DNA of 38,271 nt from a virus, in IMG/VR virus record IMGVR_UViG_3300048587_000194, positions 1-38,271 of that record. One strand, written 5' to 3'. Every line of letters starts with the position of its first letter. Within the stretch, counting starts at the first letter, position 1. The notes beneath the pieces are model-generated. The model saw only the letters and a program-made list of their open reading frames with translations. It was not told the DNA's origin and searched no databases. Shown in pieces: positions 8,522 to 38,271 of this stretch. The position numbers and the translations under genes were made by a program.

Positions 8522-9949
8522 ATGACGCAGCAGCACCCGTTGCAGGCGGTGTCATTGCGCGTTCTCGGCCCCACGGCCGCAGAAATCCGCTTGCCGGGTG
8601 GGCTGATGATGATTTTTTCATATGCCCCTGAGACGCAAGGGGTTACGATCGGCCAAGCGTGGACAACCGGCGGGGAGGCCGGTGACATGATTGATCTATT
8701 CGAGCGGTGGGCGGCCGACGCCCGGCGTCGGGGGTTGGCCCCGCGCTACATCGCACAGCAGCGGAACCGCATCGAGCACCTTAGCCGGTTCCTTGCGGGC
8801 CGCCAGATCACCACGCGCCTGACCCGGGAATGGCTGGATGAGCTGGCCGAGAACGGCATCACCCGGCCGCAGGGCGGGGCGAGGCCCGCAGGCGCGAAGA
8901 CGCTGAACAACCACCTGTGGGGCATCCGGGCGGTGTTCGCCCACGCTGTGGCCGAGGGTCTGCTGGATATGAACCCCACGGACGGCATCGCCAATGCCAG
9001 GGTCCGGCGGAAGAAACAGCGGACGCTGACCCCGGGCGAGGCGTGGGCGATCTTCGAGGCGGCCGAGGCAGACGAACGATCGGCCAAGCCGAAGTGCAAG
9101 GCTGTTCGGTCTCCGTTCTACCGGGTGTTGATGGCGACGGGGATGCGGGCGGGGGCCGCCGCGTCCCTGCGGGTGGACAGTTTCCGGATCGACGCCGATC
9201 CGCCCCGCATCCTGGTCGCGCCCGAGGCGGACAAGCAACGCGAGGAGCGGGAAGCGGTGATCTCCGAGGGCGATGCCGAATACTTCCGGCGGACGTTCGC
9301 AGGCAGGCACCCGGCGGAGATGGCGGTCGAGCGGCCTCGGTGGCATGTGATCCAAGCCGATGTACGGTCGGCAGGGCTGGCGGTGGAGGATTCGCTAGGC
9401 CGCCGGTTCGGCCTGCACTCGTTCCGGCGGATGGTCGGGAGCGAACTGGACCGGGCCGGGTACAGCCGGGAGGTGATCCGAATGCGGCTGGGGCACCGGG
9501 ATATCAGATCGGCCGATCCGTACATCGTGCGGCAAGTCGAGGAGCAGCAGGAAGTTGCGGAACGGCTGGCCCGGCGGATGAAAAAATCTTCCGACAAAGC
9601 CCCGAAAAGTGTTGACACAGGCAGCGACATGACCGATGATGGTGATGTCAAGGCCGCGTCTCCCACAAGCAACGCGGATGAAATCGGGGAGCGGCCTGCA
9701 CCAGGCGGCCTTGACAATCGTAGGGTGCAGGCCCCCCGATCTCTTTCGCAGGAACCCGCCGGGCGGAACGCCTCGGGACGACCAGATCCACCAGACGAAT
9801 ACAGGTTCGAGCCCTGTATCGCCCATTCGGTGAACCAGCCGTTAGACGCAGGTGAAATCACTCGCCTGATTCAACGGCAACTGGAAGTCCTGAGCCTGTT
9901 CGCGCCCGGCAGAAATGCCGAGGGACGCGATGGGACAAGGAAGGACTAG
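8522..9949 (+). CDS. int: Tyrosine recombinase (phage integrase)
   Basis: 475 aa. It catalyses site-specific integration and excision. A SAM-like N-terminal core-binding domain (about residues 52-155) precedes the catalytic domain. I can place the full active set: Arg209 (ATGMRAGAAASLRV), Lys238, His299 and Arg302 (LHSFRRM), His325 (LGHRDI) and nucleophile Tyr334 (SADPYI). About 130 residues extend beyond the catalytic core. Codons 427-435 of this tail are formed by a tRNA T-arm and acceptor strand, so the attachment site lies inside the gene. The AGGGG ribosome site is 8 nt before the ATG. It is divergent from the late operon and heads the plus-strand genes. Confidence 0.94.
   Translation: MTQQHPLQAVSLRVLGPTAAEIRLPGGLMMIFSYAPETQGVTIGQAWTTGGEAGDMIDLFERWAADARRRGLAPRYIAQQRNRIEHLSRFLAGRQITTRLTREWLDELAENGITRPQGGARPAGAKTLNNHLWGIRAVFAHAVAEGLLDMNPTDGIANARVRRKKQRTLTPGEAWAIFEAAEADERSAKPKCKAVRSPFYRVLMATGMRAGAAASLRVDSFRIDADPPRILVAPEADKQREEREAVISEGDAEYFRRTFAGRHPAEMAVERPRWHVIQADVRSAGLAVEDSLGRRFGLHSFRRMVGSELDRAGYSREVIRMRLGHRDIRSADPYIVRQVEEQQEVAERLARRMKKSSDKAPKSVDTGSDMTDDGDVKAASPTSNADEIGERPAPGGLDNRRVQAPRSLSQEPAGRNASGRPDPPDEYRFEPCIAHSVNQPLDAGEITRLIQRQLEVLSLFAPGRNAEGRDGTRKD
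9790..9825 (+). other. attP: attP core candidate: 3' end of a tRNA gene inside int
   Basis: Bases 9801-9817 form a perfect T-arm, with stem ACAGG, loop TTCGAGC and stem CCTGT. The 7-nt acceptor strand ATCGCCC (9818-9824) and discriminator A (9825) follow directly. No D arm or matching 5' acceptor strand (GGGCGAT) is present, so this is the 3' part of a tRNA only, as expected for an attP core copied from a bacterial tRNA gene. The 5' limit of identity (about 9790) is a guess. The host tRNA should begin with GGGCGAT. Confidence 0.7.
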
Positions 9950-11500: not shown

Positions 11501-11984
11501 ATGGCAACCAAGGCAGAGCAGGTCATCACGATCGCGGCACCCCGGTTCAAGACACTCACCGTCCGAATCCAAGGCTCCAGTCCACTCATGCATCCGCGAC
11601 AACGCACCGTTGCACAACGCTTTCGAGTGGGACGACGGCAAGGCTGGACATATGTACCGGCTGCAACAGGCCCGGCAACTGATACGGGCGGTCGTCACGG
11701 TCGAGGCCGAAGGCGTGCCTGAACACCGTTCCTATGTGCTGGTGCAGGCCAATCCCGCCAGCAACCAGACCGCCTACATGCCGACGGCGGAGGTTGTGAC
11801 GCGGACCGATCTGTTCGGGGATGCGGTCCAGCGATTGCAGGCTGAGTTGAAATCCGCCCGCGACAGCGTGAATCAGGTGGTGTCTCTGGCAAATGCCCTC
11901 AATGCGGCAGAGGAACGCCGTGCGAGGTTGCAGGCTGTCGGGGAGCGGTTGGATGACGCGGTGTTGGCCGCCGAGAGCGTCTGA
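11501..11984 (+). pseudogene. Frameshifted early gene (+1 shift near 11590)
   Basis: An ATG at 11501 with an AAAGG ribosome site opens a frame with typical high third-position GC and the sequence VITIAAPRFKTLTVRIQGSS. It resembles the first strands of a phage protein family often found near RecT-type genes. At about 11590 the coding signature jumps to the +1 frame: the original frame becomes Arg-rich with A/T-rich third positions, while the +1 frame reads naturally (DNAPLHNAFEWDDGKAG) to the stop at 11984. Skipping one base joins both parts into a 160-aa protein. It is either a mutation, a sequencing error or programmed frameshifting. I see no classic +1 slippery site. Confidence 0.55.
11652..11984 (+). 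CDS. 3' part of the frameshifted gene as an independent reading frame
   Basis: 110 aa if started at the ATG at 11652, which has AAGG 8 nt upstream. A TTG at 11610 would give 124 aa. The product is helical: MYRLQQARQLIRAVVTVEAE, then VQRLQAELKSARDSVNQVVS and a second coil ending LDDAVLAAESV. It may be translated on its own if the upstream frameshift is a real mutation. No recognised family. Confidence 0.5.
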   Translation: MYRLQQARQLIRAVVTVEAEGVPEHRSYVLVQANPASNQTAYMPTAEVVTRTDLFGDAVQRLQAELKSARDSVNQVVSLANALNAAEERRARLQAVGERLDDAVLAAESV

Positions 11985-11989
11985 CCACC

Positions 11990-12345
11990 GCAAGGCGTGG
12001 CAGGCGGGGCTTGACCCGACGGAGCCCGGCCCGGCGGCGCTTGGACCGGATTGGCACGGCAGGCTTGGTTGGGCTTGGCCTGATGTCGCAGGGCAAGGCT
12101 CGGCAGGCGCGAACAGGCTAGGCCAGGCATCGCGTGGCCGGGCGAGGCAGGCTTGGCCGGGCATGGTGTGGATGGGATCGGCGTGGAAAGGCAGGCAAGG
12201 AGTGGCATCGTGCGGCTAGGCGTGGCGTGACCCGGTCCGCAGGTAAGGCGGGGCAGGGCGTGGTAAGGCGGGGCAAGCCGGGCCAGGGCAGAACGCGGCA
12301 GGTGAGGCAACGCAGGGCAGGCCGATGCGAGTCAGGGCTGGCTTG
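11990..12345. repeat. Degenerate GGC-rich pentanucleotide repeat tract
   Basis: About 350 bases built from variants of GGCNN in a rough 5-bp rhythm (aggca, tggcc, gggca, tggtg). The plus strand is very rich in GG doublets, and stop codons or Arg/Gly-rich nonsense appear in the reading frames. The 14-mer GGTAAGGCGGGGCA occurs at 12242-12255 and 12262-12275, exactly 20 bp (four units) apart. I see no gene in it. It lies immediately upstream of the replication initiator gene and its iterons. Confidence 0.6.
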
Positions 12346-12396
12346 ACACTGCAGGGCAAGGCGAGCCTTCGCATGGCGGGGCGAGCCCACGCAACA

Positions 12397-12426
12397 GCCT
12401 GAACCCGTGGAAACACGGGTGAAGGC
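12397..12426 (+). promoter_or_regulatory. GAAA-tetraloop hairpin in the leader of the initiator gene
   Basis: ACCCGTG (12403-12409) pairs perfectly with CACGGGT (12414-12420) around the GNRA loop GAAA. Outside it, GA (12401-12402) faces GA (12421-12422), a symmetric tandem G-A mismatch, and GCCT (12397-12400) pairs with AGGC (12423-12426). The result is a nearly continuous 13-layer helix ending about 33 nt before the GTG start of the initiator gene. It is probably an RNA element controlling initiator expression, or part of a primer or leader RNA. Confidence 0.5.
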
Positions 12427-12459: not shown

Positions 12460-13356
12460 GTGCCCAATGTTCCAGCGTTTCAGTTCTACCCCGGCGATTG
12501 GATGAAGGACCCGGCTCTCCGGCTTTGCTCCCCGGCCGCACGCGGCGCGTGGATCGACCTGCTCTGTCTGATGTACGAGTCTGGGGAGCCCGGGGTGCTT
12601 ATCACGAACGGGCGTCCGTGGTCGGTTGCGCAGGCAGCGCGGGTGATTGGGGCAGATCCCGACATTGTGCAGGAACTCATCGACTTTGGGGTTGCCCGCA
12701 TCCGGGACGATGGGGCTATCTACTCCGCACGCATGGTCCGCGACGAAGAGAAGCGGCAGGCGAACGCCCAGCGACAGTCACGCCACCGTAACGCGGCTGT
12801 CACGCCTCCCGTAACGCACGTGTCACGCGAATGTCACGCTCCGAGTAACGCGCCTGTCACGCACGATGTAACGCCCCTGTCGCGCCCCTCTTCATCTTCA
12901 TCTTCTTCTTCGTCTTCATCTTCTGAAGATGCCAACCAACGCGCGAGCGAGCCCGAAAGCGGGGGGGAACTCCCGCAGGGTGCCTATCCGCTCGACCCGA
13001 TCACCGACGCTGTGGTCGCGTGGGGGGCTGGAACCGTCCCACGATCCGCTGCGTGCCGCCTGGCGCTCACGCTGGACACGCTGGCCCGGGAGATCCCCCT
13101 CGTCGTCGAAGGCCGGGAGAGGCCGCCTGACGAGGTTGTGCTGGCCCTCATCGCGGCGATGCGTTCCCGGGAGGACTCGCCGCCGCCCACGAACCAGACC
13201 CGGGTGAGGCAGTACGCCGACGCCGCCCTCCGCGACTGCGCGGCTCATGGGCTGATGCCCGGAGACCGGCGAGCCCGCGACCGCCCCCTCACCGAGTTCG
13301 AGCGTTCCCGCCGCGACCTTCACGACTTCGCCAAGACCCTCGGAGAAACCGGATGA
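12460..13356 (+). CDS. Replication initiator / replisome organiser with internal origin
   Basis: 298 aa. The N-terminal domain (residues 1-100; FQFYPGDWMKDPALRLCSPA, GAWIDLLCLMYES) is of the DUF1376-like winged-helix type found in phage replication initiators. Residues 106-142 are a low-complexity linker whose DNA contains ten iterons. A run of Ser (about 144-156) follows, encoded by a TCT/TCA pyrimidine tract. The C-terminal helical domain (about 180-298) would contact the helicase or loader. GTG start with AGGGGG 8 nt upstream. Lambda gene O has the same plan: DNA-binding N-terminus, iterons and an AT-rich region inside the gene, and a partner-binding C-terminus. The next gene overlaps as ATGA. 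Confidence 0.75.
   Translation: MPNVPAFQFYPGDWMKDPALRLCSPAARGAWIDLLCLMYESGEPGVLITNGRPWSVAQAARVIGADPDIVQELIDFGVARIRDDGAIYSARMVRDEEKRQANAQRQSRHRNAAVTPPVTHVSRECHAPSNAPVTHDVTPLSRPSSSSSSSSSSSSEDANQRASEPESGGELPQGAYPLDPITDAVVAWGAGTVPRSAACRLALTLDTLAREIPLVVEGRERPPDEVVLALIAAMRSREDSPPPTNQTRVRQYADAALRDCAAHGLMPGDRRARDRPLTEFERSRRDLHDFAKTLGETG
12777..12885. repeat. ori: Ten helically phased iterons (replication origin)
   Basis: The heptamer GTMACGC (GTCACGC or GTAACGC) starts at 12777, 12788, 12799, 12811, 12822, 12833, 12845, 12856 and 12868. A tenth, variant box, GTCGCGC, is at 12879. Spacings are 11, 11, 12, 11, 11, 12, 11, 12 and 11 bp, close to one helical turn. Spacings of 11 are not multiples of three, so the repeats fall in different codon frames and must be conserved as DNA, not as protein. 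They lie within the initiator gene and directly precede an AT-rich tract. Confidence 0.8.
12888..12930. other. AT-rich pyrimidine tract, probable DNA unwinding element
   Basis: A run of TCT, TCA and CTT triplets. Bases 12891-12930 contain only 14 G or C in 40, against a strongly GC-rich surrounding. One strand is almost pure pyrimidine. It starts immediately after the tenth iteron, where a melting region is expected in iteron origins, and also encodes the poly-Ser linker of the initiator. Confidence 0.65.
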
Positions 13357-13760
13357 ACCTTGCCGAGCGATTCCTCGCCGCGTTCCCGCACGCGGCCCAG
13401 ACCAACGGGTGGACCAAGGACAACCTGACGCGGATGGTCCGAGACGCGACCACGCTGGGGATATCGGGGGACGAGTTCCAGGCGATCGTGGACCGGCTGT
13501 TGCGGACGCCCCGCCGAACGAGCGTGCCGCCGTACTCCGAGGTCTACGGGGCGATGCTGGCGCGGAAGAACGAGCGGGCGGCCCAGATGCCCGACTCGAC
13601 CGTGCAACGCCTGCGGGAGTCCCGTGCGGAGTACCGGCCTTGGACGGACACGGAACGCGCGTGGCGGCGTGAGGTGGTGGTAGCGATGCGAGAGGGCCGG
13701 ACGGCTCCGACCCTGGCCGAGTTCAGGAACATGCGTGAAGCGATGGGAGGTGTGGCGTGA
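13353..13760 (+). CDS. Possible helicase loader / replication accessory protein
   Basis: 135 aa, start overlapping the initiator stop as ATGA. It begins MNLAERFLAAFPHAAQTNGW and has a helical N-terminal domain of about 75 residues ending RTPRRTSVPPYSEVYGAML. The pattern of short helices followed by a proline-containing step resembles the N-terminal fold of G39P-type helicase loader/inhibitor proteins. The rest is basic and helical. Placement right after the initiator gene, as for lambda P or SPP1 gene 39, supports a role in loading the host helicase. The family assignment is tentative. Confidence 0.5.
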   Translation: MNLAERFLAAFPHAAQTNGWTKDNLTRMVRDATTLGISGDEFQAIVDRLLRTPRRTSVPPYSEVYGAMLARKNERAAQMPDSTVQRLRESRAEYRPWTDTERAWRREVVVAMREGRTAPTLAEFRNMREAMGGVA

Positions 13761-14158
13761 GCGAAGCGAAGTTCAAGTTTGGATCGAAGGCGTACCACTC
13801 GACGCACGGCGAGGTCGTCGTCCTGCACCAATCCAAGAGTGATCCCGACTGGCTCTCGTATGCGTCGGAGGGCGGAACGATCGGATGGGCGGCGAGGGTC
13901 GAACTGCTGCCCCCTCCCCCTCCCCCTCCCCCCAACACCGTGCCGGTTCGGATCGCGGTGGCGGTGAACGAAAGAGGCGACTGGGCCGCCGATGGGCGGT
14001 CGATGATGCCGAGTGGAACGACAGCCGCGTTCAAGGCTCGGGAGACTGTCGAGCGAGAGAATGGGGGCAAGGTTCGCGTCTCGTTCATCACCGCCCACGT
14101 CCCCCTGCCCGAGAAGCCCGTCGAGGTTGAGGGGACGGTTGAAGGGGGTGGGGCGTGA
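13757..14158 (+). CDS. Two-domain accessory protein with poly-Pro linker
   Basis: 133 aa, GTG start overlapping as GTGA. Residues 1-50 form a small beta domain (FKFGSKAYHSTHGEVVVLHQ). Eight consecutive prolines, encoded by a pure C/T tract at about 13910-13934, separate it from a second domain starting VPVRIAVAVNERGDWAADG. The VRIAVAV module recurs in the gene at 22234, so the two share a domain. Function unknown. Confidence 0.6.
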   Translation: MSEAKFKFGSKAYHSTHGEVVVLHQSKSDPDWLSYASEGGTIGWAARVELLPPPPPPPPNTVPVRIAVAVNERGDWAADGRSMMPSGTTAAFKARETVERENGGKVRVSFITAHVPLPEKPVEVEGTVEGGGA

Positions 14159-14729: not shown

Positions 14730-15626
14730 ATGTTCACAAGCTATTCGCCGGATCTGGACCTGTCCCAGGCGGGGCCGCTGGTGGTTCGCGGGATGCCCGC
14801 CAGCATCTACCACGGGCTGGACCGGCTCAACGCCAGCACCGTTCACCCGTTCAGCCAAGGCATGATGCAAGGGATCGTCGCGGCGACCACCGAGACGGAT
14901 CAGACGATGCCGATGGCCTTGGGCACGGCGATCCATTCCCGCGTGCTGGAGCCCAAGGACTTCGAGTCCCGCGTGCTGGAACGCGAGGACATCGGGCCGG
15001 GTGCGAAGGTTGGCTACCGCAAAGCCTGCGAGGACAACCCCGACGCGATCGTGCTGGCGAAGGGCTGGCGGGCCGACATTGACGGGGTGCGGGAGGGCAT
15101 CCGCCGGTCCCCGTTCTCCGAGCGGCTGATGTTCGGCTACTCGACCGCCGAGAAGGAACTGACGATCCTGTGGACCGAGACTGTGGGTGGCCAGTCCATC
15201 CCCTGCAAGGCCCGCCTGGACTTCTTCGAGCCGACGCTGCGGGTCGTGGCCGACCTGAAGACCGCGAACAGCGTGGTTCCCGGGGTGTTTGAGAAGACCA
15301 TCGGGGAGCGTGGGTACCACATCAAGGGCGCGTGGTACTGCCGGGCCGTCAGCGTGGCCGAGCTGTGCGTCAACCCCCGCATGGTCTGGGTCGCGTGCGA
15401 GACGAGCCCGCCGTACACCTGCCAGCCCTTTGAGGGCAGCGGGCGGCTGATGGAACAGGGCTGGGCCGAGGCGTGCGTGGGCGTGCATCGCTACGCCGCG
15501 TGGCAGGCGTGCGGGCGTGAGGAGTCCGCCGCCGATCCGGTCCCGCCCCCAACGCTGCTGACCGTGGACATCCCGGGGTACATGCAACTGGACCCCGAGA
15601 TCCTGAGCGAGTTCCTGATTTCCTAA
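14730..15626 (+). CDS. RecE-like 5'-3' exonuclease (PD-(D/E)XK)
   Basis: 298 aa. Processes double-stranded ends so that the annealase RecT can pair single strands. The family motifs are visible: PMALGTAIHSRVLEP with His69, CKARLDFF with Asp164, and RVVADLKTA giving Asp175-x-Lys177 of the PD-(D/E)XK site. A Tyr-containing helix, YHIKGAWYCRAV, comes where family members carry the (Q/K)xxxY motif. This fits the C-terminal nuclease domain of RecE/ExoVIII (DUF3799-type) and has the normal length of stand-alone phage versions. It lies 23 nt upstream of recT, as a usual exonuclease-annealase pair. Confidence 0.85.
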   Translation: MFTSYSPDLDLSQAGPLVVRGMPASIYHGLDRLNASTVHPFSQGMMQGIVAATTETDQTMPMALGTAIHSRVLEPKDFESRVLEREDIGPGAKVGYRKACEDNPDAIVLAKGWRADIDGVREGIRRSPFSERLMFGYSTAEKELTILWTETVGGQSIPCKARLDFFEPTLRVVADLKTANSVVPGVFEKTIGERGYHIKGAWYCRAVSVAELCVNPRMVWVACETSPPYTCQPFEGSGRLMEQGWAEACVGVHRYAAWQACGREESAADPVPPPTLLTVDIPGYMQLDPEILSEFLIS

Positions 15627-15649: not shown

Positions 15650-16504
15650 ATGACAGACACCAAAGCAATCGTGAAAAGCCCGGGCCAGAAATGGCTTGAC
15701 GAGAAGGTGATGAGCGACGATCGACGGGACCGGATGCGGGCGGCCTGCGAGGGCAGCGGGATCACGGTCGAGAAGTTGGAAGCGATCCTCGCCCGCGCCG
15801 TGATCGACAACCGCGACCTGATGAAGTGCGATCCGAACAGCCTGTTCACGGCGATGATGACCGCCGCCGAGTTGGGCCTGTCCCCGTCCGGCCACCACAA
15901 CGGCGCGTACTTCGCCACCTACGCGGGTCAGTGCAAACTTGGGCTGGGGTACGGCGCGATGATCCAACTGGCGACCCGGGACGGTCGGATTCGCTCGTTC
16001 AAGACCGACGCGGTGTACACGGGCGACAAGTTCACGGTCCACGCCGGGACGGACAACCGCATCGAACACACCCCCGACTACGCGGCCCGGAAGGGCGAGC
16101 CGCACCTGTTCTACGCCGTGGCGTTCTTTGCGGACGGGGGCTGTGAGTTCGAGGTGATGACCCGGGCCGAGGTTGACAAGGTGCGTCAGGGCAGCCGCAA
16201 CAAAGAGGCACCGCCGTGGAAGTACCAGTTCAACGAGATGGCGAAGAAGACCGTCCTGCGCCGCCTGATGAAGCGGCTCCCCCTGCAACCCGTGCTTGGC
16301 GAGGCGCTGGAGGACGCGGATCTGGTGGACGGGTTCGACAAGTCCCCGGGCCGCCGCCGCGTGCAGAACGAGTCCGACCTTGCCTCCGAAGTGCTGGGCG
16401 AGCCCCCGGGCCGTGACGCCGGTTACGACGGGCCGACTGATGAGGACTTGGCCGGGCAACCGCCGTTCGACCCGGAGGAACTGAACATGGAAACCCCTTA
16501 CTGA
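15650..16504 (+). CDS. recT: RecT single-strand annealing protein
   Basis: 284 aa. Anneals complementary single strands in phage recombination. Diagnostic RecT blocks are LFTAMMTAAELGLSPSGHHN, LGLGYGAMIQLATRDGRI, LFYAVAFFADGGCEF and PPWKYQFNEMAKKTVLRRLM. The last 60 residues are acidic and disordered (GYDGPTDEDLAGQPPFDPEE), as in many homologs that bind host SSB or the exonuclease. The ribosome site GAGGGAG sits 4-5 nt before the ATG. It is followed by a 130-nt non-coding gap containing GC hairpins. Confidence 0.93.
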   Translation: MTDTKAIVKSPGQKWLDEKVMSDDRRDRMRAACEGSGITVEKLEAILARAVIDNRDLMKCDPNSLFTAMMTAAELGLSPSGHHNGAYFATYAGQCKLGLGYGAMIQLATRDGRIRSFKTDAVYTGDKFTVHAGTDNRIEHTPDYAARKGEPHLFYAVAFFADGGCEFEVMTRAEVDKVRQGSRNKEAPPWKYQFNEMAKKTVLRRLMKRLPLQPVLGEALEDADLVDGFDKSPGRRRVQNESDLASEVLGEPPGRDAGYDGPTDEDLAGQPPFDPEELNMETPY

Positions 16505-22241: not shown

Positions 22242-22475
22242 GAACCGAACGCCGGAGCCGTCCGGCCTGAGCAAGCTGAGCGTGGAGGCGAAGTTGAGCC
22301 CCACCCCCTCCCCCGATGAGGTAGAGGTGCGGATCGCGGTGGCGGTGGAGGGTTGTGGCGTATCGCCCAGCGGGATTGCATTCCCGTCGGCGGTGAAGTC
22401 TGGAACAAGCCGGGCGCGCTTGGCGACATCGCCCGCGACACCCTCGCCGCGATCGACAAGGATGTGGTCAAGTGA
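22234..22475 (+). CDS. VRIAVAV-module protein with probable -1 frameshift
   Basis: GTG start at 22234 behind AAGGAGACC. The first 40 residues contain GLSKLSVEAKLSPTPSPDE and VEVRIAVAV, shared with the proteins at 20106 and 13757. After about 22352 the annotated frame becomes Ser/Arg-rich and would run to 22704, overlapping the next gene by 230 nt. In the -1 frame the text reads EVWNKPGALGDIARDTLAAID and ends at TGA 22473-22475, giving the GTGA overlap seen at nearly every other junction. The gene therefore carries a one-base insertion, or uses a -1 shift, near 22340-22360. Confidence 0.55.
22266..22320 (+). repeat. 55-bp direct repeat, copy 2 of 2
   Basis: Matches 20243-20297 at 51 of 55 positions. 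Here the linker is joined to the VRIAVAV module instead of the zinc-ribbon protein domain. Confidence 0.8.
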
Positions 22476-22774
22476 ACGAACCTGTAAACTTGAGAATGAA
22501 TCTGTTTTTCACCAACGTGGGCGGGCACCCGCAGGAGGTGATGAAGCGGCTGGGCATCACCTACGAGATAGCCACCCCGCAGTCTCTGGTGGATCGGTGG
22601 TGGTTCTGGGGGTGCCGCAATGTGCCCGACGAACTGCCCGACTGGCTGACGGTCCTGCCGCTCAGTCCCCGCGAGGCCGTTGGACACGGATTGTCTATGG
22701 CTGACGCCCTGCGGCTAGAAGCAATGATGCCGTCCGCTTCGCATGATCAGGAGGAGCCGACCGATGGAAACTGA
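22472..22774 (+). CDS. Hypothetical accessory protein
   Basis: 100 aa, GTG start at 22472. Contains NLFFTNVGGHPQEVMKRLGI and a Trp-rich segment (SLVDRWWFWGCRNVPDELPD), then an Ala/Met-rich helix. No recognised family. The start was chosen from the GTGA overlap with the corrected end of the upstream gene. Confidence 0.55.
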   Translation: MNEPVNLRMNLFFTNVGGHPQEVMKRLGITYEIATPQSLVDRWWFWGCRNVPDELPDWLTVLPLSPREAVGHGLSMADALRLEAMMPSASHDQEEPTDGN

Positions 22775-32706: not shown

Positions 32707-34146
32707 TTAGTCCTTGAGGGCAACGATGCCCGTGTTGGTGCCGGTGACGTCATGAAGGACGTAATCCCACCGCTGGGTGTAGCGGAGGGCCACTTCATCC
32801 GTGTCGAAGTAGAAGTCGTTGCTGGTCGCCATCTGCTCGGAGCCGCGAACGACGCCGAACTTGGTGGCACGCTTGAACGACCCGATGTACGCCACGATCT
32901 GGTTCTGCACGAACGAGCGCGGCATGACATTGGAGAACACGACCGGCACGCCGTCCCAGCCCTTGACGGTGGTGCCGTTGAGGATCTGATCCCCCTGAGT
33001 ACCACCCGCCGAGTAGGCGTTGACCTTCAGGACGGACTCGTAGAAGGACGGGTTGCAGACGATGGCGAGATCCGGGTCGTCCAAGGCCCAGCCCGGAAGC
33101 TTGCCCTTGGCCGCCTGGAGCTTGGCGATCGTCCACCCCGACCAGTCGGTGTTGGCGGCGTCGTAGGTGGCGTCGGAGTCCGCGCCGGCGGTCTGAACCA
33201 GACCAACAGGGCGGCCCGTGCCGAGGAAGTAAGACTTGTCCTCCCACTCGGCCACGGCCCGAGCGATGGAGACGTTGAGCTGGTTGGCGATGTTGATGGC
33301 AGAGTCGTTCAGCAGTTCGTTGCTGATCCGGCAAAGCGCCGTGGTCTTCTTCGCGTAGAGGCCCGGACGGTCCACAGCACCATCGGTCTCGGTGAGCTGC
33401 GCCCCCTCGGCCGTGTCGGTGATGGTGACGTCAGAGGTCCAGCGATGGAACTGAAGGCTGTCCCGGCTCATCGGGGTCACACCGGCGGCGAGGCGGGCCG
33501 CGCCGAAGGTGTTCAGGTTCTCGATGAGTTCCGGGGCGTATTCCTCCACGACCGTCGAGCCGTAGGCCGCCGGGTCGCCGATGCTGCCCTTGGTGAAGAT
33601 TTCGAGGTCGGCGCGCTTCTGGGTCGCGTACGCCTCCATGATGTCCGGGTTCGTGGACCGTCCGAACGCGGCCAGACGGATGGCAGCGGTCGCCAGTTCG
33701 GCCCGGTCGGCATCCGCGTAGACGCACTTGGCACCCCGGAAGGCTCGGCCTTCGCGGGCGGCCTTGTCGTAGGCCTTCCGCTTAGCGATGTTCTGCCAGT
33801 TCTTGGCCGTCATGCCGGTGGCGGCCTTGACGAGCCCACGACGAACGGCCTTGCCCATTTCGGCTTCGGCCTCGTCCTCGTCCTCCCCCTCCGCCTTGGC
33901 TGATTCCTGGCCGGCCTCGGGCTGGACCCACTCGACCGGCTCGCCGTTGTCGGCGCGGGCGGTCACATAGACGGTCTTGGTGTTCCAGATCTTCTCCAGC
34001 TGCTCGCCGGAGAGGGTCTTCTTGGTGTCGGACGGGTCGGCGAAGGCGTAGCCCTCGACCTCGCGCCACTCGTTGAAATCTTCCAGGGTCTTTCCGTTGA
34101 AGCCCTGCGAACGCGCAGCCTCCAGCAGTTGCTTGCGATTCTTCAT
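32707..34146 (-). CDS. Major capsid protein, HK97 fold
   Basis: 479 aa from the ATG at 34146, chosen because GGAG lies 8 nt upstream; an ATG at 34152 is too close to that site. Residues 1-150 are charged and helical and include an acidic stretch (AEGEDEDEAEAEMGKAVRRG). This is a probable scaffolding (delta) domain that the neighbouring protease removes. The HK97 body follows: FTKGSIGDPAAYGSTVVEEY (the start usual after cleavage), ISNELLNDSAINIANQLNVS, LAIVCNPSFYESVLKVN, WDGVPVVFSNVMPRS, and GVVRGSEQMATSNDFYFDTD. It has its own predicted promoter upstream. Confidence 0.92.
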   Translation of the reverse strand: MKNRKQLLEAARSQGFNGKTLEDFNEWREVEGYAFADPSDTKKTLSGEQLEKIWNTKTVYVTARADNGEPVEWVQPEAGQESAKAEGEDEDEAEAEMGKAVRRGLVKAATGMTAKNWQNIAKRKAYDKAAREGRAFRGAKCVYADADRAELATAAIRLAAFGRSTNPDIMEAYATQKRADLEIFTKGSIGDPAAYGSTVVEEYAPELIENLNTFGAARLAAGVTPMSRDSLQFHRWTSDVTITDTAEGAQLTETDGAVDRPGLYAKKTTALCRISNELLNDSAINIANQLNVSIARAVAEWEDKSYFLGTGRPVGLVQTAGADSDATYDAANTDWSGWTIAKLQAAKGKLPGWALDDPDLAIVCNPSFYESVLKVNAYSAGGTQGDQILNGTTVKGWDGVPVVFSNVMPRSFVQNQIVAYIGSFKRATKFGVVRGSEQMATSNDFYFDTDEVALRYTQRWDYVLHDVTGTNTGIVALKD

Positions 34147-34270
34147 CGCCATGTCTCCGTGTGACGGGTGTGAAATCCCGACGCACAGGCCCTTTGGCGA
34201 TGAGGGGCTGGCCACACCTAAGTGCTTGGCGGACCCCGACATGGCAGTACCTGGTTGTCTACAGGCCAGT

Positions 34271-34299
34271 AGTATAACCCCCGGACGGGTTCCGTGCAA
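34271..34299 (-). promoter_or_regulatory. Promoter of the capsid gene, flanked by two direct repeats
   Basis: Minus-strand TTGCAC (34299-34294), a 17-bp spacer and TATACT (34276-34271), the best two-part promoter in the window. The start point near 34264 gives a 118-nt leader before the capsid ATG at 34146. The octamer CCGGACGG (plus-strand reading) occurs at 34281-34288 in the spacer and 34303-34310 upstream of the -35, exactly 22 bp apart, so both copies lie on the same face of the DNA. Confidence 0.6.
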
Positions 34300-34887: not shown

Positions 34888-35633
34888 GCAGGCTCCTTCC
34901 GAATGACTACCGTGTGATCCGGACCTGGCAGCACAATCCGCCAAGTCTTCCGCTCCAACGCGATGGGCAGGCCCACACGGGCCGCGCCCGCACGGCTGAT
35001 CCGGCCCTTGGTCACAAGCCGCTCAATCGCCCCAAGGTGCTTCTCGTCGTACACCACGCCCTGCGTCTGGCACGCCTTGTTCGCGGGCAGGGCGGTGGCG
35101 GACAACTCGAACCAGTCCCACGCCCTCACGATGGATCGGGGCTGTTTTCCGCCCTTGCTGTACCGCTTGGCCTCGTCGGATGACGGGGGGCCGTAGTCGC
35201 GGGCGAGGAAGCCCACGGACAGGCCGATGCCGCCGGTGTCTTCGATGATGGTCTGGACGGTCTTGCCGGCCTCGGTCCGGGCGATCTTGAACCGCACCTG
35301 CCAAGCCGTCTGGCTCTTCGCGTCCGTCGCGTTCGGGTAGCGGTTGATGTACCGCAGGCTGCCCACCACATCCTCCGCGTTGTAGCGGTGGTCGGCAAAG
35401 AGCTTCATGTTCTTGGAGATGTAGGACAGGTCGGCCCCTCGGGGATCGACCACCTCATCCTCCAAGTCCACATCGTCGGTGTTGGCGAGGGCGACATACT
35501 CGGGCCTGCCCTGATCGTCGGCGGCCTTGTGGAACCGGGCACCGACGGCCGAGCGGATGCCCACCGGCCCCTCCAGCCCCATCCCCTTGCCGTACGCCAA
35601 CAGGCGGTCGATTGCGTTGGGTTCGTGGATCAT
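34884..35633 (-). CDS. HK97-family prohead protease
   Basis: 249 aa from the ATG at 35633, overlapping the portal stop as ATGA. Serine protease of the herpesvirus-like U35 clan that cleaves the capsid delta domain. Visible motifs: VVDPRGADLSYISKNMKLFA, catalytic His82 in FADHRYN, Ser139 in GGIGLSVGFLARDY, and WFELSATALPANKACQ, the ELS..xxPAN block characteristic of the family. The C-terminal 40 residues are basic (RISRAGAARVGLPIALERKT). Order portal-protease-capsid is classical, apart from the inserted Ntn hydrolase. Confidence 0.88.
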   Translation of the reverse strand: MIHEPNAIDRLLAYGKGMGLEGPVGIRSAVGARFHKAADDQGRPEYVALANTDDVDLEDEVVDPRGADLSYISKNMKLFADHRYNAEDVVGSLRYINRYPNATDAKSQTAWQVRFKIARTEAGKTVQTIIEDTGGIGLSVGFLARDYGPPSSDEAKRYSKGGKQPRSIVRAWDWFELSATALPANKACQTQGVVYDEKHLGAIERLVTKGRISRAGAARVGLPIALERKTWRIVLPGPDHTVVIRKEPA

Positions 35634-37918
35634 TCGTCGTCCTCCGGGTAAACGGCGATCATCGTGCAACGGTCATTCGGGTGTGCGGGGCTGTGGTAGA
35701 TGTTCTCCCGCACCGTCACGCCCCCAAGCGTCTCGCCCGCCACCGCGAAGGGCTCGCCGATCGGCTTGGGGCCACGCTGCGAGATGGCCGTGCAGAGCGG
35801 GCAAGCACCGGGCGACAGCACCCATTCCGCCTTGTCCGCCCCAAGCACCTTGAACGATTCGTACCGGCTCGCGTTGGCCGCACGGTTGACCTCGGTACGC
35901 GCGATCCGCTCGGCCCGGTACGCGGGCACGCCCTCGATTTCCTTGCTGATCTGGTCGATCGTCCAGCCGTTCTCCAAGCCCCGGACCACCGCCTCTTTCG
36001 CCATGTCCGCCGTGGTCCCGAAGATGTCGTCGGCCAGCCGGATGGTGTAGTCCCGGGCGAACTGCAAAGCACGCTCAGGCACCACATCGAACGCATCGTC
36101 CAACGCACCCGCCGCCGTCATTTCCTCGCGGATGGCGTACTCGGCCATCTCGGTGAGCTGCTCGGTCAGCAACGCCTCGGCCTGCTGCCGCAGGTCCGCA
36201 AGGTCGGGCAGTTCGGAGATCCAGTAGGCCCGCACCGATTCGCTCTGAGCGTCGGTCAGGATGTCGTACATGGTCTCCTGGAACTGCGGGCCGTAGCGGT
36301 CGAACATGTCCCGCACCAGACCGGGCGGGAGTTTCGGGGCTTCCTTGCAGCACGCCTCTTCGCAGGTGTCCGCCCACCAGTGGTGTTCAAGGGCGAGCAT
36401 CGCGGACTTCAAAGAAACGGGGCTTGCATTCTCGGGCTCGGTTTGAAAGGCGGCTTTCGTAGCGTCCGCGTCCTCTTCCTCGGCCTCGGGCTCCGGGGCG
36501 GGTGCCGGGTCCGGTTCAGGCTCCGGATTGGGCTCGGGCTCTTCCTTGGGCTCCTCCCGGCGCGAGAACAGACCGGCGAACGGGTCCGCCATCTGCGGGG
36601 CCGCGCCAAGCGGCTGGCCGTTGAACAGCAGTGTGTCCGCCATCGGATCGTCCAACTGGTCAAAGCCCAACTCGGCCCGCACCTCGTTGATCGTCAGGGC
36701 ACCGCCCCCGGACAGCGCCAGCAACCGCGTCTGCTCGGCCTGCTCGTCCTTCGGAACCGGGTCGTCGTAGACAAAGCACCAGTCGTTGGGGTCGAGGTCG
36801 AACAGCCCGGCCAACACCATCTGCGTCTTCTGCGCCGCGTCGTCGATCAACTTGGCCCGGATGACCCGCCCGTGCTGGGCGTCCGCCACACCCGCCGATG
36901 CGTAGGTGCTGGCGTTGCTGTCTGCCATGGACTCGGGAATGCCAAACGCGAACCGGATGCGCTTCTCGTAGGTGTCCAACTGCTCGACGGTCCGCAGATC
37001 CTTCGGGTTGAAGGACAGCGGCACCCAATCGAGGTTCCAGCCGATGAAGGGCTTGCCCTCCTTGGACCCGCCCGCGCCCCATTGGTCGAGGTTGTCGTAC
37101 AACTCCCGCATCTGCTCGGCGGTCGGCTTGCTCTCCGTCGTGATCTTGATGATGCTGTCCGGCCGGTTGCCGTTCTGGACGAACGCCAGGTCGTGCATGT
37201 TCGTCCGCAGGATCAGGTCCGCCTCGGGCACCACGCCCGCCAAGTCGCCCTCGCCCATCAGCGGGTTGTGGCGGCTCAGGGCGTTGCGGAAGTGCAGGAC
37301 CGAATCAGGGTCAAGCCCTACCGCGTCGGTGGTGTCGCGCCCGAAGTAGTACCCCTCCACCATCGACGGGTCTTGCTTGCTCCACACCACATGGACGAAC
37401 TGCGGATACCCCGGCCACGCCCGCAGCCCCTTGTCCCGCGTGATGATGGTGTACCAGTTGCCGGTGATGCCCCGGAAGTAGAACGACATCAGTTCCAGCA
37501 CCGAGCCGGGATACGCCGGGTTCGGGTTCTGGACAAACCGCAGGGCCGGGTGATCCATCACTTCGCGGATATCCCCGCCCGCGTCCACGAACGATTGCAC
37601 CTTGGTCCCCATCACGCCCGACGCCAGCCGCTTGCGGAGGGTCTTGGACACCGACCGCTGGGCGAAGGGCGTGGAGCCCGTAGACCCGCCCTGACGCCGG
37701 TACAGGCGAAGCGGCTGAGCGGCGCACGCCCTGGCGTTGATCATCGCGCAGGTGTGGACCGTTGATTGTGCCCGCTTCATCAGGTCGATGGCCTGCGGGT
37801 CGCGGGAATACTGGCGCACCAACGCCTCGGACCGCAGCACCGTGGGCGATGCGATCTGGTCACTGGTGATGATGCCGAACTGGGCCAGTGCCTTGGTGTC
37901 CGCAATCGTGAAGTTCAT
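35630..37918 (-). CDS. Portal protein fused to a MuF-type head morphogenesis domain
   Basis: 762 aa from the ATG at 37918 (ATGA overlap with terL). A TTG two codons earlier is less likely. Residues 1-430 are an HK97-type portal: RDPQAIDLMKRAQSTVHTCA, LELMSFYFRGITGNWYTIIT, and IRFAFGIPESMADSNASTYA, the FGIP motif of the portal crown region. An acidic Pro/Glu-rich linker (about 440-480) follows. The C-terminal part ends with a Mu protein F-like domain: AYRAERIARTEVNRAANASR, CPLC (706-709) and HPNDRC (746-751), typical MuF Cys motifs. Portal-MuF fusions put the minor capsid protein, probably injected or internal, in the portal ring. Confidence 0.9.
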   Translation of the reverse strand: MNFTIADTKALAQFGIITSDQIASPTVLRSEALVRQYSRDPQAIDLMKRAQSTVHTCAMINARACAAQPLRLYRRQGGSTGSTPFAQRSVSKTLRKRLASGVMGTKVQSFVDAGGDIREVMDHPALRFVQNPNPAYPGSVLELMSFYFRGITGNWYTIITRDKGLRAWPGYPQFVHVVWSKQDPSMVEGYYFGRDTTDAVGLDPDSVLHFRNALSRHNPLMGEGDLAGVVPEADLILRTNMHDLAFVQNGNRPDSIIKITTESKPTAEQMRELYDNLDQWGAGGSKEGKPFIGWNLDWVPLSFNPKDLRTVEQLDTYEKRIRFAFGIPESMADSNASTYASAGVADAQHGRVIRAKLIDDAAQKTQMVLAGLFDLDPNDWCFVYDDPVPKDEQAEQTRLLALSGGGALTINEVRAELGFDQLDDPMADTLLFNGQPLGAAPQMADPFAGLFSRREEPKEEPEPNPEPEPDPAPAPEPEAEEEDADATKAAFQTEPENASPVSLKSAMLALEHHWWADTCEEACCKEAPKLPPGLVRDMFDRYGPQFQETMYDILTDAQSESVRAYWISELPDLADLRQQAEALLTEQLTEMAEYAIREEMTAAGALDDAFDVVPERALQFARDYTIRLADDIFGTTADMAKEAVVRGLENGWTIDQISKEIEGVPAYRAERIARTEVNRAANASRYESFKVLGADKAEWVLSPGACPLCTAISQRGPKPIGEPFAVAGETLGGVTVRENIYHSPAHPNDRCTMIAVYPEDDE

Positions 37919-38271
37919 CGCCAACCCCCGGCCGTCGTGGCCCAGATGTCACGCTTGGTCGCGGCTCGCGGTGAGTAGTAGCCCAAGCACGCCTCGCCCT
38001 CGTCCACGCTGCGAACGGCGTAGCGGAGGGCGTCGAGAGCGTGGTTGTCCCGGTCCATCGGCTCGTCCTTCAACCTGTCACCCCCGGGCTTCCACTCATA
38101 ACTCTCGAACTCGCGGATCAGGTTCGTGCAGCACGGGTCCACCGTCAGCCTGGGCCGCCCGTCGCCCTGCACCACAAGCCGCTGCTGAATCAGGCCGATA
38201 CCGAAGTTCACCGAGCCCTGCCCCTTCTCGGCCGCACGCGCGTTGATGTCCTTCCGACGCATGGACTCGAT
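37915..38271 (-). CDS. terL: Terminase large subunit, C-terminal part
   Basis: This is the same gene as the one ending at window base 1. Bases 38145-38271 duplicate bases 1-127, so 37915-38144 is the unique 3' part. It encodes the end of the nuclease domain, including the conserved DNHALDALRYAV segment that supplies the last acidic metal ligand of terminase nucleases. The stop TGA (37917-37915) overlaps the portal ATG (37918-37916) as ATGA, so portal translation is probably coupled to terL. Confidence 0.93.
   Translation of the reverse strand: MESMRRKDINARAAEKGQGSVNFGIGLIQQRLVVQGDGRPRLTVDPCCTNLIREFESYEWKPGGDRLKDEPMDRDNHALDALRYAVRSVDEGEACLGYYSPRAATKRDIWATTAGGWR
38145..38271. repeat. 127-bp end repeat, right copy
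   Basis: Exact copy of bases 1-127. It lies inside the terminase large subunit gene, which would be an unusual place for true direct terminal repeats. This supports reading it as the overlap of a circular assembly. Confidence 0.95.

Follow-up and report, generated by a model that had tools for sequence, protein, structure and literature searches.

We identified, in a window of viral DNA (the whole stretch analysed, 38,271 bases, IMG/VR record IMGVR_UViG_3300048587_000194), a region at 12777-12930 that, judging from its sequence, is very probably a phage replication origin embedded in the initiator gene at 12460-13356. The layout is common to Tuc2009 rep, 80alpha ORF20 and pSK41 rep, genes reported to carry origins. 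An origin within the initiator gene is a known design. New here are a dense single-turn array with a TCTTCA tract kept at the DNA level, across a large family, and evidence which suggests, from sequence comparison, that the protein helix encoded beside the boxes sets their letters. The window carries a temperate-type phage gene set (Table 1).

Table 1. Positions of the features discussed, numbered along the window.
Feature	Position	Strand	Remarks
Integrase	8522-9949		
Initiator gene	12460..13356	+	GTG start, 298 aa
Post-wing long helix codons (residues 90-114)	12727..12801	+	AlphaFold2 model, 125 residues
Putative recognition residues N102-A-Q-R105-Q106-S-R-H109-R110	12763..12789	+	alignment and family X covariation; function inferred
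Box 1, GTCACGC	12777..12783	+	overlaps codons of Q106-R108
Box 2, GTAACGC	12788..12794	+	overlaps codons of R110-A112
Box 3, GTCACGC	12799..12805	+	
Box 4, GTAACGC	12811..12817	+	
Box 5, GTCACGC	12822..12828	+	
Box 6, GTCACGC	12833..12839	+	
Box 7, GTAACGC	12845..12851	+	
Box 8, GTCACGC	12856..12862	+	
Box 9, GTAACGC	12868..12874	+	
Box 10, one-base variant GTCGCGC	12879..12885	+	
TCT/TCA-rich tract	12889..12930	+	poly-Ser codons 12889-12924; G-poor coding strand; 35-37.5% GC
Exonuclease VIII-like	14730-15626		
RecT	15650-16504		
Major head protein	32707-34299		
Portal	35630-37924		

The array contains nine copies of GTMACGC and one variant, at steps of 11, 11, 12, 11, 11, 12, 11, 12 and 11 bp, and all of the boxes and steps listed in the initial annotation were recovered. 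The heptamer occurs 19 times in the whole window against 15.5 expected, which is near chance, but its clustering and phasing in the array are not. The nine GTMACGC copies start in codon frames 2, 1, 0, 0, 2, 1, 1, 0 and 0, and all three frames are used. As a comparison, codons 96-165 were recoded synonymously 100,000 times with the codon usage of the window. Nine GTMACGC boxes were observed against a maximum of seven in any recoding, and the longest run of boxes at 10-12 bp was nine, compared to four at most in the recodings. By this measure the box array is constrained as DNA, as had been proposed from its changing codon frames.

The boxes had also been proposed to be bound on one helical face. 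This did not hold: with a twist of 10.4-10.6 bp per turn, the positions of the ten boxes are scattered around the helical circumference (resultant 0.08-0.33), and they share one face only at about 11.3 bp per turn. A protein that holds its register along the array must therefore either wind round the DNA or cut its twist. At about 11.3 bp per turn the array would lose about 0.7 turn in total, and whether such strain helps the DNA to open is a matter of speculation.

Directly after the boxes lies a tract that encodes 12 serines, 11 of them by TCT or TCA; these two codons account for 13.7% of all Ser codons in the window. The 40-mer starting at 12891 has 35% GC and ranks second-lowest among the separate 40-mers of the window, which bears out the tract described earlier. 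Adjacency of an AT-richer tract to the boxes is a feature of embedded phage-initiator origins, and we propose that the tract may act as an unwinding or helicase-loading element. Only the 40-mer at 22470-22509, near a change of gene direction at about 23 kb, is lower in GC (32.5%), and a (CCCCCT)n repeat at 13910-13939 forms a 30-base G-free run.

The initiator protein is made up of an N-domain (approximately residues 1-89), a post-wing helix (90-114), the linker that bears the array, and a C-terminal part without a family match. It matches phrog_13246, 'replisome organizer' (E 5.5e-9), and the array is thus indeed within an initiator-type gene. No significant Pfam match was found for the protein, either to RepA_N (PF06970, E<=0.1) or to Phage_rep_org_N (PF09681) and DUF1376 (PF07120); it had no O-like match, and a sequence search of the PDB gave no relative. 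Among the 'replication initiation O-like' families, phrog_678 was weakly matched by two of 23 relatives of the window protein. The AlphaFold2 model of the 107-residue N-domain was confident (mean pLDDT 92), with the helix/strand pattern of a winged helix, in agreement with the initial annotation. Foldseek placed 4pta ('MDR initiator') first, with a weak E value of 8e-3, and listed 4pql and 5kbj ('Rep-DNA complex') near it; VIA-align placed 4pql first with a Z score of 5.7, which is weak and in the range of common folds, and other winged-helix proteins scored close behind 4pta and 4pql. The N-domain is therefore modelled as a winged helix, and its nearest solved folds, on these weak matches, include the RepA_N plasmid initiators. 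In a 125-residue model (mean pLDDT 87, with the block 111-120 at only 69), the wing is followed by a long basic helix, and boxes 1 and 2 overlap its codons.

Searches with the N-domain provided 26 loci with sequence, 490 with alignment (80 kept), and one in a bacterial genome assembly. The common layout in these relatives is a winged-helix-like domain with the residues FYPGDW, a linker with short repeats, and then (TCTTCA)n. The letters of the repeats vary and include AAGGGTCA, CAACCA, AGCAAA, GATAACAAA and GTAACG. Compared to synonymous recodings, lags of 11 and 12 had mean z values of 0.53 and 0.68 and were the top two of lags 4-30, the next being 23. The expectation that spacing would be kept despite divergence of the linker is thus borne out for the set, in which linker residues and box letters diverge and the 11-12-bp period persists, but only 12 of 86 relatives had 10-12-bp chains at p<=0.02 singly in a strict synonymous test. 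Four other step ranges in the same test gave 3, 1, 0 and 0 loci of the 86. Relatives that retained the linker residues and had lost the spacing were looked for, and the opposite pattern was seen. Serine runs, present in 55 of the 86 loci, contained TCT or TCA in 412 of 427 codons (148 expected) and no AGC or AGT at all. Neighbouring Ser codons in these runs were unlike in 74% of cases compared to 50% expected, indicating that the relatives preserve a TCTTCA hexamer at the DNA level.

A basic helix motif was present in all seven FYPGDW loci with two or more GT-type boxes, and other repeats were found in all 65 loci with a glycine-rich AGxxGG segment, the expression for the motif having been written after inspection. 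Eight relatives with the glycine-rich segment (L125, L134, L136, L143, L147, L148, L153 and L188) carry AAGGGGGGT ... AAACCCCCCTT, that is, oppositely oriented boxes around the linker, upstream of the TCT/TCA tract.

We monitored the relation between helix and boxes in a second initiator family (AWIESHQ, loci L462-L541; called family X), which was chosen by protein only. Boxes were defined from the window motif and counted only downstream of the helix codons. Two or more GTMACG were present in 19 of 21 loci with N at position 0 and no M at +4, and in only one of 42 loci with any other combination of residues (Fisher 7e-13, uncorrected for kinship). A first mutual-information run used three box types, and since these labels were partly derived from residue classes, it was repeated with a GTMACG yes/no label. 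The six most box-informative of 115 columns then all fell in residues 94-114, the post-wing segment, and no helix-turn-helix column was among them. R99, in the same helix, was as informative as N107 about box type, and the code is therefore not confined to bZIP-like positions. Hexamers enriched at multiples of 11 bp were GGACGT/CGGACG in loci with D..RK and CGTGCA in those with N..RM. Residue +7 may be partly dictated by the box overlapping its codon.

Independent closest pairs unlike in residue class were then taken from a tree of the family X N-domain without the helix. The box type switched as predicted in nine of ten pairs, in a tree where few branches are well supported and only two pairs lie on such branches; in the tenth pair L513 has GTCAC repeats, which the label scores otherwise. 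L523 and L530 have nearly identical winged-helix domains, yet both helix and boxes are unlike. By eye, GACGACC-type repeats were read in four annotated phages with E..RS at the helix positions (nd4, MT836645, Shimadzu and Lagaffe, of which nd4 and MT836645 are near-identical), and GTNACG repeats in seven rep_org_N phages with [NTS]xxR[VMAQK]xx[YHSQ]R. Automatic parsing of the helix register in a pattern-selected set often slipped by one frame, and its output was left out of the counts. A rule equating the basic motif with GTMACGC was rejected as too crude, because the basic motif spans several box types in family X.

These comparisons suggest that one protein helix and its adjoining repeats change together. 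Box specificity seems to reside in the long post-wing helix, a refinement of the earlier assignment of binding to the N-domain. We lean, by a little, towards a post-wing helix that is a major-groove recognition helix setting the box letters, with helix and boxes forming one transferable cassette of about 200 bp. The putative recognition register would be N(0)-R(+3)-[K/Q/M](+4)-[S/H/Y/F](+7)-R(+8), reminiscent of the bZIP basic region, and the candidate code would assign GTMACG to N..R[K/Q], GTCC/GGACGT to D..RK and CGTGCA to N..RM. The basic region of bZIP proteins is a helix of the form NxxAAxx[CS]R accompanied by a leucine zipper. Positions N(0), +3, +4, +7 and R(+8) are common to both, by analogy only; bZIP proteins have two alanines at +3 and +4, where the post-wing helix has R and Q, K or M and is preceded by a winged-helix domain, and the helix therefore does not have the bZIP form. 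Since the helix codons and boxes adjoin or overlap, the specificity of the protein and its DNA targets would form a single cassette of about 200 bp. Recombination could move this cassette between unrelated initiators and thereby create new replication-compatibility groups in one step. No account of the helix-box rule was found in the literature searched, subscription papers being outside its scope, and this is weak evidence of novelty.

Scanning viral contigs by DNA pattern only, for three GTMACGC boxes 11 bp apart, gave 90 stretches, many of which fall in the linkers of phage initiators with diverse N-domains, the boxes reading either along the gene or against it. The array-gene proteins scanned matched phrog_9474 in 27 of 47 cases and phrog_2509 in 23 of 47, both 'replication initiation protein', and single proteins matched DUF1376, Phage_rep_org_N and DnaB_2 in Pfam. 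A control scan at 13-14 bp gave 22 stretches. In a control scan at 9-10 bp, array genes among the matches listed were often also initiator-like, and 11 bp is therefore not unique but one of several single-turn solutions.

The Tuc2009 rep record carries the note 'contains origin of replication'. Like the window, Tuc2009 Rep has boxes mid-gene, four copies of NCAACC with a period of exactly 11 bp, and behind them a strand-asymmetric tract of low complexity; it differs in box number and letters, in its N-domain, and in a purine tract instead of TCT/TCA. In TP901-1 rep we found 15-bp repeats and no 11-bp repeats. For 80alpha, the record places an origin within ORF20, a replisome organizer, as proposed here for the window, but the repeats of ORF20 are at 15-bp steps and have other letters. 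Supplying ORF20 in trans did not rescue ORF20 mutants, and the authors of that study took this as a sign of an embedded origin (PMC5499656). RepA_N plasmid initiators such as pSK41 Rep also combine a winged-helix N-domain with Rep boxes in the gene, four in pSK41 as against ten in the window, and the protein segment encoded by the boxes is dispensable (PMC5703833). In the natural chimera pPR9, the N-domain and origin were swapped together for those of a phage-like protein (PMC5703833), and such a joint exchange is what a linked helix-box cassette predicts.

In Phage_rep_org_N/DnaD-like initiators (phi11, StB20, phiEf11, and Listeria and Streptococcus phages), the helix motif [NTS]xxR[VQKAM]xx[YHSQ]R lies directly before GTNACG repeats, and a low-complexity tract follows, as in the window. 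They differ in having fewer boxes, some in palindromic GTAACGTTAC pairs, and GATATA or GAA tracts. Period-6 (GATATA, GATAAA) or GAA tracts after the boxes were seen in phages of Streptococcus, Oenococcus, Listeria, Enterococcus and Staphylococcus (L565-L569, L573), and a repeating short unit beside the boxes may be a general part of origins. The initial annotation had called the origin lambda-like. The lambda O gene has iterons and then an AT-rich region; there are four iterons, imperfect inverted repeats of 19 bp to which O binds as a dimer (PMC7466680). Iterons and an AT-rich region within the initiator gene are indeed shared with ori-lambda, but in place of four inverted repeats the window has ten boxes of 7 bp, which are non-palindromic and recur at about every turn. 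Lambda is thus a looser relative of the window system than are the Tuc2009-type and RepA_N-type initiators. The assignment of origin function, in contrast to the lambda type and the single helical face, appears right in outline with respect to the initiator gene, the constraint on DNA, and a layout known from origin-bearing genes.

We propose that about one initiator per box would bind the array via its winged-helix domain and post-wing helix, with N102, R105, Q106, H109 and R110 as putative contact residues. The bound initiators would build a nucleoprotein filament, and strain from this filament would open the AT-richer, strand-asymmetric tract next to it. With a host or phage helicase loader, the C-terminal part could then bring in the replicative helicase and lead to theta replication, and the linker would serve mainly to carry DNA sites. 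Family searches of the window genes revealed no helicase loader.

Many DNA-binding phage proteins autoregulate, and the boxes could be operators for self-repression or a transcription roadblock, with replication starting elsewhere. We regard this as improbable, as the array is well inside the gene and not at a promoter, a search of 11.5-14.5 kb showed no sigma-70-like site, and relatives preserve the neighbouring TCT/TCA tract at the DNA level. In repeat number and spacing, the array also resembles centromeres such as parC, an array of 11-bp repeats bound by ParR, and tubC, which is bound by the winged-helix protein TubR. A partition site is nevertheless still less probable, given that an integrase is present in the window, that the protein matches replisome organizers and not ParR or TubR, and that the layout is common to genes reported to contain origins (Tuc2009, 80alpha; PMC5499656). 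The occurrence of one box in many initiator families could be accounted for by a conserved host protein, instead of the phage initiator, binding GTMACGC, but the switching of box letters with phage helix residues in nine of ten independent pairs of one family, and the other boxes carried by close relatives of the window, make this very unlikely. Although the stretch does encode VT/SR and poly-Ser repeats, the idea that it is only a low-complexity protein linker, with the DNA pattern as a by-product, is contradicted by the sequence and is the least credible, as the boxes rotate through three frames and exceed synonymous recodings, and the Ser codons are strongly biased, with TCT and TCA alternating.

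An origin embedded in the initiator gene, our preferred reading, has practical consequences. Many phage initiators have only a generic or unknown-function annotation, with origins unmarked, and the combination of helix motif, single-turn boxes and low-complexity tract should allow origins to be located by sequence in many such phages. The helix-box rule gives direct predictions of the origin bound by a given initiator; if true, it would explain how replication specificity can evolve as a single unit, and could provide orthogonal initiator-origin pairs for plasmids.

At L009, L177 and L192, and at L487 and L495, the initiator linker contains an endonuclease-type domain (T5orf172/MUG113, or HNH), in the place where other relatives hold boxes. 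Such domains may be mobile and insert at the origin, or else those genes may have lost an embedded origin.

The turn in GC skew expected at 12.8-12.9 kb was not seen; cumulative skew over the whole window had no turn at 12.8 kb and reached its maximum at 27.5 kb. The next gene after the initiator gene (13353-13760) had no family match. Directly upstream of the initiator gene, approximately 400 bp (11984-12400) without a clear gene hold many degenerate GGCNNGGC/GGCNGGC repeats, with 27 matches compared to a mean of 0.9 in equal-sized stretches. These G-rich repeats were absent upstream of the FYPGDW relatives of the window, and a similar G-rich reading frame was found upstream of another initiator locus (L045).
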